Below are positions 36,778 to 41,751 of a stretch of DNA of 64,000 nt, one piece after another. A program made the translations under genes and the position numbers. Every line of letters starts with the position of its first letter. The first letter of the stretch is position 1. Source of the DNA: Marasmitruncus massiliensis (lineage in GTDB: Bacteria > Bacillota > Clostridia > Oscillospirales > Ruminococcaceae). The notes beneath the pieces are model-generated. The model had not been told where the DNA came from, ran no database searches, and was given only the letters and a program-made list of their open reading frames with translations. Location: assembly GCF_900186535.1 (NCBI RefSeq), contig NZ_FYDE01000005.1, positions 782,895 to 846,894 on the forward strand, given 5' to 3'.

Positions 36778-38046
36778 CTATCTGCCCGCCTTGGTCTGTT
36801 CGATGATACTCTCCATCATACTTTTGGTCAGCGCGCCCGATACATATCCGAAGACGTTTCCGTCCGTATCAATCATAAACGTAGTGGGGAACGCACTGAT
36901 TCCGTACTGCGCAAACAGTTCGCCGGTTTCGTCCATGACCACCGGGAAAGTATACCCGTTGTCGGAGAGAAACTGAATAACCCCGTCCAAATCTTTTTCC
37001 CGGTTGTAGGGATCATCGGCAGACTTGGGGTTTGCCATTCCCAGAATGATCACATCATCGCTATTTTGCCCCAGTTCCTTGTAGAGTTCTTCAATTTCAG
37101 GCATTTCCTGCCGGCAGGGAGGGCACCATGTCGCCCAGAAATTGAGGAATACAACCTTTCCCTGATAATCCGACAGCGTGTGAGTGTTGCCATACTGGTC
37201 GGTCAGAGTGAAATCCGGTGCGGGTACAACCGGCATGGATTCCTCTTCCGATGATGAGCCGGATTCGGGAGAACCGGCATTTTCAGGCGCTGCGCTGCTT
37301 TCTGACGAGGCAGGGCTGGGAACTCCGGAAAGATAGCCTGTCACGCCGTTCATCCAGCCGGTGAAGGTCATAAAGCCGATCAGAATCAGCAGCACGCCGC
37401 CGGCCTTGATGGTCCAGCGCAGGAGATTCTGCCTGTGCTTGAGAAAAGCGAGCGCCTGGGTCGTAAAGAAGCCGAGCAATGCGAATGGCAGGACAAACCC
37501 CAGTGTATAAACCAAAACCAGCAGGTTCCCGGTCAGAGCGCTTTTTGCGCCGGAGGCGAGGATCAGTACCGAGGAGAGCGCCGGACCGACACAGGGCGTC
37601 CAGGCAAAGGAAAAAGTGAATCCCATTACAAAAGCGATCAAGGGATTTACAGATTTTCCGGCAAGGTTCAGATGAAATCTGCGCTCCCGCGAAAGAAATT
37701 TTAAGTCAAAGAAGCCTGCCTGTACCAACCCCAGTATCAAAATCACAATACCGCCGATTCGGGTGAAGATCGTTTTATGCGCGTTGAAAAACTGGCCGAG
37801 AACCGAGAAAGACAGTCCAAGCAGAAAGAATGCAAAGGAGATGCCCAATACAAAAAACAGGGTATGAAGCAGGGTACGCCCGCGGGGATATAGGGGTTCG
37901 CCGCTCTGGGATTTTACGCCGCTGCCCGCCAGATAACTCATGTAGACAGGCAAAAGCGGAAGTACACACGGCGAAAAGAAGGATAGCAGCCCTTCCAGAA
38001 AAACGAGAAGAAAACTGATGTGCTGCACAGCATTGAGTCCCTGCAT
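36778..38046 (-). CDS. CcdA-type membrane protein fused to a TlpA/ResA-like thioredoxin
   Basis: This 422-residue fusion should move reducing power from cytosolic thioredoxin across the membrane. The N-terminal part (about 1-235) is a six-helix CcdA domain with its redox cysteines in FFSPCVLPLLP and WTPCVGPALSS. A Ser/Glu/Pro-rich linker of about 45 residues follows, then an extracytoplasmic thioredoxin domain with WATWCPPCRQEMPEIE and cis-Pro SAFPTTF. AGGAGGG lies 6 bases before the ATG. It is monocistronic; the target (cytochrome c, spore or envelope disulfides) cannot be told. Confidence 0.92.
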   Translation of the reverse strand: MQGLNAVQHISFLLVFLEGLLSFFSPCVLPLLPVYMSYLAGSGVKSQSGEPLYPRGRTLLHTLFFVLGISFAFFLLGLSFSVLGQFFNAHKTIFTRIGGIVILILGLVQAGFFDLKFLSRERRFHLNLAGKSVNPLIAFVMGFTFSFAWTPCVGPALSSVLILASGAKSALTGNLLVLVYTLGFVLPFALLGFFTTQALAFLKHRQNLLRWTIKAGGVLLILIGFMTFTGWMNGVTGYLSGVPSPASSESSAAPENAGSPESGSSSEEESMPVVPAPDFTLTDQYGNTHTLSDYQGKVVFLNFWATWCPPCRQEMPEIEELYKELGQNSDDVIILGMANPKSADDPYNREKDLDGVIQFLSDNGYTFPVVMDETGELFAQYGISAFPTTFMIDTDGNVFGYVSGALTKSMMESIIEQTKAGR

Positions 38047-39252: not shown

Positions 39253-39705
39253 ATGACGGACACGGATTTTATGAGGCTGGCGCTGGAGCTGGCGGCTCAG
39301 GCGGCGGCTCTCGGCGAGGTGCCGGTGGGGGCCGTGGTCGTGTGTGACGGCGAGGTTGTGGGAACCGGCTTTAACCGGCGCGAAACCGGAAAAAATGCGC
39401 TTGCGCACGCCGAGCTGGAAGCGATTGATGCCGCATGCAGAAAACTGGGCGGCTGGAGGCTCCACCGCTGCGACCTGTATGTGACGCTGGAACCCTGCCC
39501 GATGTGCTCCGGCGCGATTGTAAATGCGCGCATCCGGCGGCTGGTGTATGGCGCGAGTGACCCGAAAGCGGGATGCTTCGGGTCTGTCTGTGATTTCAAT
39601 GCCCTGTCGTTTAATCATAAGCCGGAGGTAACGGGCGGGGTTATGGCGGAGGAATGCGCGGCGGCGCTTTCTGATTTTTTCAAAACATTGCGCAAAATAC
39701 GGTGA
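39253..39705 (+). CDS. tadA: tRNA-specific adenosine deaminase
   Basis: TadA converts wobble adenosine 34 of tRNA-Arg(ACG) to inosine. The zinc and catalytic residues are in HAELEAID and EPCPMCSGAIVNARI. 150 residues, normal. CAGGAGTAAAATA precedes the ATG. In many Firmicutes tadA is followed by the SRP RNA gene and dnaX; here neither is present downstream and a different small transcript seems to occupy that place. Confidence 0.94.
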   Translation: MTDTDFMRLALELAAQAAALGEVPVGAVVVCDGEVVGTGFNRRETGKNALAHAELEAIDAACRKLGGWRLHRCDLYVTLEPCPMCSGAIVNARIRRLVYGASDPKAGCFGSVCDFNALSFNHKPEVTGGVMAEECAAALSDFFKTLRKIR

Positions 39706-39721
39706 AAAAAGTCGATTATCT

Positions 39722-39745
39722 ACAATATATTGTGTCGTTCACAAT
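39722..39745. promoter_or_regulatory. Overlapping palindromes upstream of the putative small RNA
   Basis: The 12-bp palindrome ACAATATATTGT (39722-39733) overlaps ATTGTG-N5-CACAAT (39729-39745), about 42-65 bases before the predicted transcription start. This is the layout of a regulator site; the regulator is unknown. Confidence 0.5.
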
Positions 39746-39771
39746 TTGTTCACCATTGTAGGCATACTCCA

Positions 39772-39780
39772 TGCTATAAT
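39772..39780 (+). promoter_or_regulatory. Extended -10 promoter of the putative small RNA
   Basis: TGCTATAAT; transcription would start about 39786-39788, exactly at the first base of a hairpin. Confidence 0.65.
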
Positions 39781-39786
39781 CTTTTC

Positions 39787-39878
39787 AGAAACGAAACGTT
39801 TCTATGTTAATCCCCCCTCCTTTATTTTATCTCCAGATTATTTTTCCTGATAACGGGCATTATGCTCGTTATTTTTTT
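39787..39878 (+). ncRNA. Putative trans-acting small RNA with C-rich anti-SD seed
   Basis: Three parts are visible: a 5' hairpin AGAAACG-aaa-CGTTTCT (39787-39803), an unpaired pyrimidine-rich stretch with TCCCCCCTCCTT (39811-39822), complementary to AGGAGG ribosome binding sites, and a terminator ATAACGGGC-attat-GCTCGTTAT with seven T (39850-39878). No ORF fits. The architecture matches C-rich Gram-positive regulatory RNAs in general, but I do not recognise a named family. Absence of the SRP RNA core argues against that gene. Confidence 0.55.
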
Positions 39879-39905
39879 GCATTTTAATCGGAAAAACGGT
39901 ATAAT
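39877..39905 (+). promoter_or_regulatory. Promoter of the nitrilase-like gene pair
   Basis: TTGCAT (39877-39882), 17 bases, TATAAT (39900-39905). The -35 box overlaps the end of the preceding terminator T-run. Confidence 0.7.
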
Positions 39906-39941: not shown

Positions 39942-40646
39942 TTGGATAATGTGGTAACGGAAGTGGTAATGCCCTGGCAGCCGCCGTCCGACGGAACACG
40001 CCTGGTTCTGCTGTCTGATGACACCGTGCATGCAGGGCGGCCGGAGGTCAACCGGCATCTGCGCGGCTGTTCCGAATACGCCAAACGCCACGAAGTCTGG
40101 CTTGTCAGCGGGCTGGTCGTGCATAAGGATAACCTCTGCCTTGCGCTCTTCGGGCCGGACGGAAACCCGCTTTGCCGCCAGCCGGCCATCCATCTTGCAA
40201 TGCCGATGCGGGGAACGCTGAAACCGGCGGATCAGGTGGAGGTGGTGCATACCGAACTGGGGAATCTCTGCCTTTGCGTGGACGCGGATATCCTGCATCC
40301 GGAAACAGTGCGGGCAGCCGCGCTGAAGGGTGCCGATGTTGTAGTCAGCATCCAGCATCTCGATCCGGTGGATGACACCCCCCAGCGCCTGATGGCGTCT
40401 GTCTGGAACGCGGCGCAGACCAATAATCTATATGTCATAGGCATTATGTGCGGGAACTGCGCGGTAGCCTGCCCCGCACCGCTCACCCGCAGCAAAGACG
40501 GCTATCTGGTGCGGCGCACGCGCAACCTTCCGCTGAGGTTCGGACTGAATCTGGTCCGGCTGGATGACATCCGCTCCCAATTCCAGATCATCGAGGGCCT
40601 GAATAACCGGCTTGTGCAGAATTATGCCGCTGAACTGGGGAGATAG
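39942..40646 (+). CDS. Nitrilase-fold protein 1, keeps Cys but lacks Glu and Lys positions
   Basis: This 234-residue protein aligns with the later part of the carbon-nitrogen hydrolase fold. NLCLCVDADILHPETVRAAALKGADVVV corresponds to the nucleophile block, with Cys in the ICYD-like LCVD. The usual N-terminal Glu block is not recognisable, and the Lys block appears as QPAIHLAMPM with no Lys. Catalysis by the standard Glu-Lys-Cys triad is therefore unlikely on its own. The start is TTG at 39942 after GGGGGACGGG. A second nitrilase-fold gene begins 4 bases after its stop. Confidence 0.7.
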   Translation: MDNVVTEVVMPWQPPSDGTRLVLLSDDTVHAGRPEVNRHLRGCSEYAKRHEVWLVSGLVVHKDNLCLALFGPDGNPLCRQPAIHLAMPMRGTLKPADQVEVVHTELGNLCLCVDADILHPETVRAAALKGADVVVSIQHLDPVDDTPQRLMASVWNAAQTNNLYVIGIMCGNCAVACPAPLTRSKDGYLVRRTRNLPLRFGLNLVRLDDIRSQFQIIEGLNNRLVQNYAAELGR

Positions 40647-40650
40647 TCAG

Positions 40651-41751
40651 ATGTGGAAACTGATTTTGAATCTGCTCGCATTTTGGATGTCCTTCCGTAT
40701 AACCCCCAAGAAGATTACGGATTATTTGGAGTCCAGGGTGGGTGAACCGAAAAACAATCTGGAATACGTCACGCCGGAGACTGTGCGGGTGTGCGCAGTG
40801 CAGCTTACGCACCGCCGTTATCATCATCTGCGGGAGTTTTTGGATGAAATGCTGTCCCTGACCGCACAGGCGGTGGAAGAGGGTGCACAGATGGTGGTGT
40901 TCCCCGAATATATCGGGCTTGCGCCTCTGACGCTTGTGCCCGGTATGGAATCGCTGCTGCGCCGCACGGTTCTGGGAGGCGGCCTGTCTGACCCCGATGG
41001 GCTCAGGCTGCATCCCAAATGGGCGAAATGGATGCTGGAAGCGTTTCATCATATGATCTATGAAACCTATGTGTACACCTTCAGTACCATTGCGCGGCTG
41101 AAAAAGGTTTATCTGGTCGCCGGTACCACACTTTTGCTTGAACAGGGAAGCCTGATCAACAGCAGTATGGTTTTTGCGCCGGACGGCAGTACCGTCGGTG
41201 CACAGGGAAAAACGAATATTGTCGGGCTGGACCGGCAGCTCGGTGTGGAGCCCTCCAGCCAGATTGAGATCATTGATACGCAGATGGGAAAGCTGGGCGT
41301 CATTATCGGTTCCGACGTTTATTACTTTGAGAATTTCCGGATTGCCAAGGCGCTTGGGGCGCAGATCATCGCGGTGCCGGATTCCAGGGCGGGTATCGTG
41401 TGCAACTTACTGCGCTGCCGGGCGGATGAACAGCAGATTTATACGGTTTATTCCTGCTATGCGGGAATCGCGGCCAATACTCGCGCCGGCATCTTCTGCC
41501 CGACGGAAATCGGGCCGCGGCGGACCGGCATTACGGCGATTGCCGACACGATTGACACGGCAGCAGTCACAGCCCGAATCAATGTCAGTAAACTAGGGGG
41601 GAGCGCCCGGCTGGAAGCGGGGGAACCCAACGATTCGTTTTTGCAGGGTGACTATCTGCACAGTTACTGCTATTGCGGCGCCCTGCCGATTGTGGATACC
41701 GAATCCGAGACTGTGCGGGACCAACTGCAGGAAGAATTCCCGGAAAAATAA
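40651..41751 (+). CDS. Nitrilase-fold protein 2, keeps Glu and Lys but lacks Cys
   Basis: This 366-residue protein has a short hydrophobic N terminus (LILNLLAFWMSF) and a carbon-nitrogen hydrolase fold. VVFPEYIGLAPL contains the expected Glu and GAQGKTNIVG the expected Lys. The nucleophile block reads KLGVIIGSDVYYFENFRIAKALGAQII, so the Cys of IC.D is replaced by Gly. It should be inactive by the standard mechanism, or depend on the Cys of the partner encoded just upstream. GGGGAG precedes the ATG at 40651. Confidence 0.75.
   Translation: MWKLILNLLAFWMSFRITPKKITDYLESRVGEPKNNLEYVTPETVRVCAVQLTHRRYHHLREFLDEMLSLTAQAVEEGAQMVVFPEYIGLAPLTLVPGMESLLRRTVLGGGLSDPDGLRLHPKWAKWMLEAFHHMIYETYVYTFSTIARLKKVYLVAGTTLLLEQGSLINSSMVFAPDGSTVGAQGKTNIVGLDRQLGVEPSSQIEIIDTQMGKLGVIIGSDVYYFENFRIAKALGAQIIAVPDSRAGIVCNLLRCRADEQQIYTVYSCYAGIAANTRAGIFCPTEIGPRRTGITAIADTIDTAAVTARINVSKLGGSARLEAGEPNDSFLQGDYLHSYCYCGALPIVDTESETVRDQLQEEFPEK

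Follow-up and report, generated by a model that had tools for sequence, protein, structure and literature searches.

Several small RNAs of low-GC Gram-positive bacteria, RsaE and FsrA among them, have a C-rich UCCC seed that binds the Shine-Dalgarno (SD) region, as stated in the available text of PMC4132741. The original prediction on the locus described here likewise noted that C-rich seeds masking ribosome binding sites are known from Gram-positive small RNAs. For the csRNAs of streptococci, which belong to the CiaRH regulon, translational repression has been proposed, and their promoters have the CiaR box NTTAAG-N5-TTTAAG ten bases upstream of the -10 element (PMC3091779, available text). 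For LhrC of Listeria, translational repression has been shown (PMC4132741, available text).

The locus described here lies in a stretch of 64,000 nucleotides, which is referred to as the window (genome G000). To our knowledge, little is known about the regulatory RNAs of the strictly anaerobic gut Clostridia around Anaerotruncus. The features of the locus, in window coordinates, are as follows.

39253 to 39705, plus strand: tadA (tRNA adenosine deaminase), the syntenic upstream gene; an open reading frame named in the original prediction and by our own reading of the protein
39722 to 39745, no strand: overlapping palindromes, read from the sequence in the original prediction
39738 to 39754, plus strand: operator-like direct repeat TTCACA-N5-TTCACC, at about -49 to -33, from a five-genome alignment
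39772 to 39780, plus strand: extended -10, TGCTATAAT, read from the sequence
39787 to 39878, plus strand: predicted small RNA gene of about 92 nt, from sequence, folding, and covariance-model relatives
39787 to 39803, plus strand: 5' hairpin AGAAACG-AAA-CGTTTCT, from sequence, folding, and covariation
39810 to 39834, plus strand: unpaired conserved stretch ATCCCCCCTCCTTTATTTTATCTCC, from carrier comparison and pairing probabilities
39811 to 39822, plus strand: anti-SD block TCCCCCCTCCTT, read from the sequence
39849 to 39878, plus strand: intrinsic terminator, with its stem at 39849 to 39873 and seven T at 39872 to 39878, from sequence, folding, a terminator scan, and covariation

The original prediction had placed the extended -10, the 5' hairpin, the C-rich block, and the terminator at these positions, and reading the sequence again gave the same coordinates for all four, with the predicted first base of the RNA at about 39787. 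The segment from 39780 to 39880 folds at -18.2 kcal/mol (z = -3.57), a stability reached by none of 200 shuffled sequences, and the fold of the RNA stretch consists of two hairpins with an open middle. A simple terminator scan found two terminators, including that of the RNA; shuffles are expected to give 1.9, so such finds are not rarer there. When the whole 64,000-base window was compared with Rfam, nothing was obtained at gathering score, and the RNA matches no Rfam family. SRP RNA and the other Rfam families were rejected as identities on this ground. Many Firmicutes have the SRP RNA at the tadA-dnaX locus, and the likeness is the position next to tadA. Unlike that locus elsewhere, the window has no match to any Rfam SRP model, and SRP RNA is not among the weak matches at 39700 to 39900 either; the original prediction had noted that its core motif is absent. 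A coding sequence was also rejected, as the 27-codon frame that starts at 39804 extends past the terminator and an ATG at most 12 nt before the block is found in only 5 of 30 carriers of the RNA (G000, G116, G204, G216, and G076). In our own reading, no SD was seen ahead of the ATG preceding the C-rich block.

We investigated the distribution of the RNA by several searches. When 60 other genomes were searched at the DNA level, four had it: 3 of the 10 belonging to the same genus, and one from a different genus. A pattern scan of named genomes found it in two strains of Anaerotruncus colihominis, A. massiliensis, and Merdimmobilis hominis, which suggests an Anaerotruncus-like species as the source of the window. 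The carriers include cultured A. colihominis DSM 17241 and Merdimmobilis hominis. A covariance model built from five sequences (R1) matched 25 of 297 genomes of the family, of which G034 and G277, with neither the core nor tadA, were judged false. A second model (R2), built from 24 sequences, matched 29 of 396 family genomes, belonging to 16 of 126 genera, and all 29 were judged real; the weakest matches, G152 and G076, were kept on inspection, with tadA upstream, TGN-TATAAT, the hairpin, and the terminator. Over a 394-genome sample of the order, R2 gave four matches, three of them known family members and one (G556) judged false, being in our own reading the complement of a ribosome binding site before an open reading frame. 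The 30 carriers considered throughout are the 29 R2 genomes and G004, which came from the DNA search and is absent among the R2 matches. Because searches over more than 40 genomes had stricter filters that lose weak matches, at least 29 of 396 family genomes have the RNA. Given this figure and the result for the order, the RNA appears, within what was searched, to be restricted to a single family, where its distribution is patchy.

The original prediction had called for a comparison of the two hairpins in relatives, and this comparison revealed compensatory change throughout. After 24 sequences had been aligned to the model, 95.4% of the alignment cells were paired and all 14 pairs had changed on both sides, comprising the 6 modelled pairs of the 5' hairpin (98.6% of cells paired) and the 8 of the terminator (92.8%). 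The covariation score was 0.625, compared with 0.203 in shuffles, none of 500 reaching 0.625, and at most 0.189 across six slides; pairing and covariation exceed all 500 shuffles and all six slides. Since the alignment was fitted to the structure, the count leans towards that structure. Single-sequence folds of 23 carriers, made without fitting, contained both the 5' and the terminator hairpin in almost every case, the 5' hairpins of G100 and G020 being built differently. Conservation extends to the C-rich block, for which CCCCC(C)TCCTT(T/G)AT is exact in 28 of the 30 carriers. The changes in the relatives support the proposal of a small RNA gene that has a promoter to itself and in which an anti-SD block lies unpaired between a 5' hairpin and a terminator. 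We regard an independent sRNA gene at 39787 to 39878 on the plus strand as almost certain, and it is presumably transcribed.

The same stretch might instead be the 3' untranslated region and terminator of tadA, with the RNA as a by-product without a separate promoter. It lies immediately after a tadA match in 27 of 29 evaluable carriers (at only 36% identity in G216; the upstream gene of G677 was not judged, as a contig end cuts the locus), and the RNA terminator would presumably also end tadA transcripts. However, a terminator alone would not require a C-rich block as conserved as this one, and 30 family genomes without an RNA match in any search all have tadA, behind which up to 330 bases were inspected without finding such an RNA (the stretches of G006 and G021 being short). 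Moreover, a promoter box and an extended -10 are conserved between tadA and the RNA, and G036 and G100 keep the RNA with no tadA match in 1.3 to 1.5 kb upstream. For these last two reasons, read-through into tadA mRNA only, which the original prediction had weighed against a separate transcript, is unlikely, and we consider it very improbable that the RNA is merely a by-product of tadA. On the downstream side, a match to the first of the two nitrilase-like genes on the same strand is present at only 4 of 30 loci (G000, G004, G036, and G076; on the other strand in G009), and a cis-acting leader of these genes was rejected. Since the neighboring genes are not constant across the carriers, the RNA is not a leader of the nitrilase-like pair and is probably not merely a tadA tail. 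In the window itself, 39942 to 41751 hold two tandem carbon-nitrogen-hydrolase (nitrilase-like) genes, the first of which scores 25.7 bits against a cutoff of 23.2 and may be divergent. On the minus strand at 36778 to 38046, one frame in our own reading encodes a CcdA-type membrane part apparently fused to a thioredoxin-like domain.

Upstream of the -10, the original prediction had pointed to overlapping palindromes, ACAATATATTGT at 39722 to 39733 and an overlapping ATTGTG-N5-CACAAT. They are indeed present in the window, but they are absent in G014 in the five-genome alignment and are not the conserved element. What is conserved in the promoter is instead a direct repeat, which the original prediction did not describe. 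It falls in 19 nt, GTTCACAATTTGTTCACCA, that are invariant in all five aligned genomes, including one of another genus, while the surroundings differ. The pattern GTTCAC-N5-GTTCAC occurs once per genome in all five, only at the RNA promoter. The repeat stands 20 nt before the extended -10, and TGN directly precedes the -10 in 24 of 30 carriers; in two (G020 and G677) there is no -10 in the stretch examined. OmpR/PhoB-type regulators typically use direct repeats that have an 11-base period and lie next to the -35 position, and the regulatory element would thus be a repeat of this type rather than the palindromes. A gapped pattern of the repeat and the -10, applied to 16 carriers, matched in 15, with the sRNA promoter itself matched in 12. 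A fixed pattern of the same geometry was found in 21 of 29 sRNA promoters, against a mean of 0.115 and a largest count of 1 in 200 Markov shuffles; the other 8, including that of G133, are off-pattern in the repeat or the spacing. Fixed-pattern counts, here and below, leave out the sRNA promoter of G677 and the response regulator (RR) genes of G296 (locus short) and G003.

The gapped pattern also finds near-identical promoters of the same geometry in G000, G003, G004, G009, and G014, and in the four that were read (G000, G004, G009, and G014; loci L061 to L064) they precede an operon of an RR and a histidine kinase (HK). In G000, the RR gene (G000:C1:98899-99588) is followed by the kinase gene and encodes a full-length OmpR/PhoB-type protein, which is below the cutoff of each NCBIfam model among the matches listed (25 of 101). 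The kinase domains HAMP, HisKA, and HATPase were found on the G009 copy. Orthologs of the RR with 67 to 95% identity are widespread, being present in 15 of 18 tested carriers at an E value of 1e-60, and repeats of the same geometry were seen before many of them. Of 47 RR promoters, 24 have the fixed pattern and 23 lack it, whereas 200 Markov shuffles gave a mean of 0.54 and at most 3. The pattern was written after 17 of the 47 RR promoters and the sRNA promoters had been seen, and because it derives from these, the fair figure is 12 of the 30 RR promoters that were unseen at that point. The RR at 67% identity or more is also found in 28 of 30 tested family genomes without the RNA, so its co-occurrence with the RNA adds no support. 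On the strength of the promoters, we think that the RR-HK two-component system probably controls the RNA; in our own reading, the system would be autoregulated and would also drive the RNA.

Gapped-pattern promoters in G014, G133, G250, and G303 precede an operon starting with a DUF5685 protein (PF18937, identified on the G303 copy), and a similar site is present in G182. In four genomes (L067, L068, L069, and L071), genes for DUF5685, a DnaJ-like protein, and a small membrane protein stand in a row, with the same repeat in the promoter. Other pattern matches look isolated, for example, those in G116 and G204 and, in G000, a match ahead of a metallo-hydrolase-like gene. The RR-HK operon, the RNA, and the DUF5685 operon may be put forward as a small candidate regulon.

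The same anti-SD RNA could be driven by a different OmpR/PhoB-type regulator with a similar box, for example, PhoP (phosphate) or a WalR-like protein. Known PhoP boxes are TT(A/C/T)ACA direct repeats with an 11-bp period and are thus similar in kind, the variant in G204 is TTAACA-N5-TTAACA, and three carriers, G133 (95% complete), G182 (88%), and G154 (72%), are without a close RR ortholog, with matches of only 43 to 46%. Control by PhoP was our first idea for the repeat and was demoted because the repeats in five pst-type leaders read by eye (L041, L042, and L048 to L050) are of the TTTACA type rather than TTCACC. When those pst loci were scanned strictly for TT(C/A)A(C/T) repeats, none turned up, and it is instead the RR-HK promoter that has TTCANA-N5-TTCACC with about 19 to 20 nt to the -10 in common with the RNA. 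As the phosphate-operon boxes, with their TTTACA repeats, are similar in kind, PhoP or another relative stays a rival, though an unlikely one. At the pst loci, the PstS-like phosphate-binding protein G000:C3:881025-881807 (L050 and L045) matches TIGR02136 in swapped order, profile positions 161 to 294 coming before about 27 to 158. Both parts apparently belong to a single open frame, which would resemble a circular permutation. Similar swapped PstS-like proteins are found in G009 (L049 and L044) and G014 (L048 and L043).

If the RR-HK system is the regulator, the RR of G000 would bind the direct repeat over the -35 position and, presumably as an activator, switch on the RNA from the extended -10 promoter. 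The 5' hairpin may protect the RNA, which the terminator would end. Held open between the hairpins, CCCCCCUCCUUU would pair with purine-rich ribosome binding sites of target mRNAs and block their translation. Translational repression is the natural reading because the block, being open, is free to pair with AAAGGAGGGG-type ribosome binding sites. The original prediction had taken the block to be single-stranded, and it is mostly unpaired: the mean pairing probability of its 11-nt core is below 0.2 in 23 of 30 carriers and 0.20 to 0.52 in the others, with the highest value in G064. The RNA thus has the UCCC-type block in an unpaired region that characterizes the C-rich anti-SD sRNAs of Gram-positive bacteria. 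Divergent versions, CCCTCTCCTTTAT in G152 and CCCCTTCTTTAA in G076, can in our own reading still pair with AAAGGAG or, via a G-U pair, with AAAGGAGGGG. The 5' hairpin is followed by AUGUUAAUCCCCCCUCC in the window and by UCAAUCCCC or similar in the 30 carriers. The stretch 3' of the block comes in few genus-level versions, with TTTTATCTCC or similar in Anaerotruncus and Merdimmobilis and TAATTAACTCCAT in many others. That the RNA acts by pairing with SD sequences is, judging from these features, quite probable.

The block may copy the 3' tail of 16S rRNA (CCUCCUUU). The RNA might then be a mobile version of this tail: once it is released by the two-component system, its open CCUCCUU block would compete with ribosomes at many SDs at once, not at a few specific targets, and serve as a graded, genome-wide brake on translation that responds to an envelope or nutrient signal. 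The core CCUCCUU is present in 28 of 30 carriers with flanks that differ between genera, and no specific conserved target emerged. However, the conserved stretch of about 25 nt is far longer than an anti-SD, with TAATTAACTCCAT common to several genera, which suggests specific pairing, and the RNA would have to be expressed very highly to act stoichiometrically on thousands of mRNAs. We give a general brake, in either form, only a slim chance.

The original prediction had further proposed a search for targets among AGGAGG leaders, and in this respect our pattern searches gave no target across genera. The pattern AAAGGAGGGGN(1-8)ATG has matches in 13 of 15 carrier genomes, with none in G000 or G067, and three of the matches (in G116, G204, and G216) are the RNA's own complement. 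The count of 0 in G000 compares with 14, 9, and 11 in G003, G004, and G009 of the same genus. With up to two mismatches, ATAAAGGAGGGGGATTR matched in 16 of 18 genomes, partly at the RNA's own complement. The places read comprised those given as loci and 40 further stretches, and when the downstream proteins there were clustered, no specific target gene common across genera was found. One protein, of a sugar-binding type in our own reading, is common to G003, G004, and G009; the other clusters are an ortholog pair in G003 and G004, a small protein that G250 and G182 have in common, and distant matches among ABC proteins and sigma-factor-like proteins. Duplex energies that ignore accessibility had a median of -16.3 and a best value of -25.3 over 56 mechanically chosen leaders of the window, among which the leader of the adjacent nitrilase-like gene ranks fourth (-23.8). 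At -14.2, the leader of the G000 RR is no better than other window leaders and gives no sign of feedback on the regulator. With their own RNAs, the RR leaders of G009, G004, and G014 reach -22.3, -20.1, and -21.8, and four DUF5685 leaders reach -11.6 to -14.2, the background in both cases being the G000 window leaders only.

Taken together, we assign a probability of about 0.6 to a trans-acting anti-SD sRNA gene under two-component control, a joint figure whose component steps are not independent of one another. Comparison at the sequence level gives a predicted gene, two covarying helices, a C-rich block that is open, and, in the promoter of the putative regulator, a repeat with matching geometry. 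The conserved small RNA family appears to be real and is not in Rfam. Neither the core sequence as typed text nor the RNA itself was found in the literature searched; in PMC8040213, a term search of the main text gave no relevant passage. The family is well bounded: its helices covary, it has a preferred locus and a promoter box, and there is a candidate regulator, so that it can be tested directly in cultured species. The two-component system, itself widespread across the family of genomes compared, also gains a small candidate regulon.

RsaE, FsrA, and other C-rich sRNAs have no Rfam match to the RNA described here, and RsaE, FsrA, and similar C-rich sRNAs have other promoters and loci. Among the weak Rfam matches over the RNA at a loose threshold, LhrC (RF00616) has the lowest E value (0.066), but its score of 24.7 bits is far from the gathering score of 110. 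Like LhrC, which depends on the LisRK two-component system and binds its targets through UCCC and CU-rich stretches, the RNA would be a two-component-dependent sRNA of similar kind; however, LhrC occurs in several copies, and its UCCC sites lie in both loops as well as in the single-stranded part (PMC4132741, available text), whereas here there are one unpaired block and one match per genome. The csRNAs are small RNAs from a response-regulator direct-repeat promoter, as proposed here; most have two stem-loops flanking an unpaired anti-SD stretch and a conserved sequence just after the first stem-loop (PMC3091779, available text), and both are found in our RNA. In place of the CiaR box, however, it has TTCACA-N5-TTCACC with 20 nt to TATAAT, and it lacks the csRNA nonamer (A/C)UCCUAAA(A/C) after the first stem-loop (PMC3091779, available text). 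Unlike the csRNAs, it has one match per genome, usually behind tadA, in a different bacterial class. The best explanation is that the RNA works like csRNAs or LhrC and belongs to neither, and we conclude that the family joins the known kind of two-component-controlled anti-SD sRNAs. If this is true, a further two-component system of low-GC Gram-positive bacteria acts via an anti-SD RNA, beside those of the csRNAs and LhrC.
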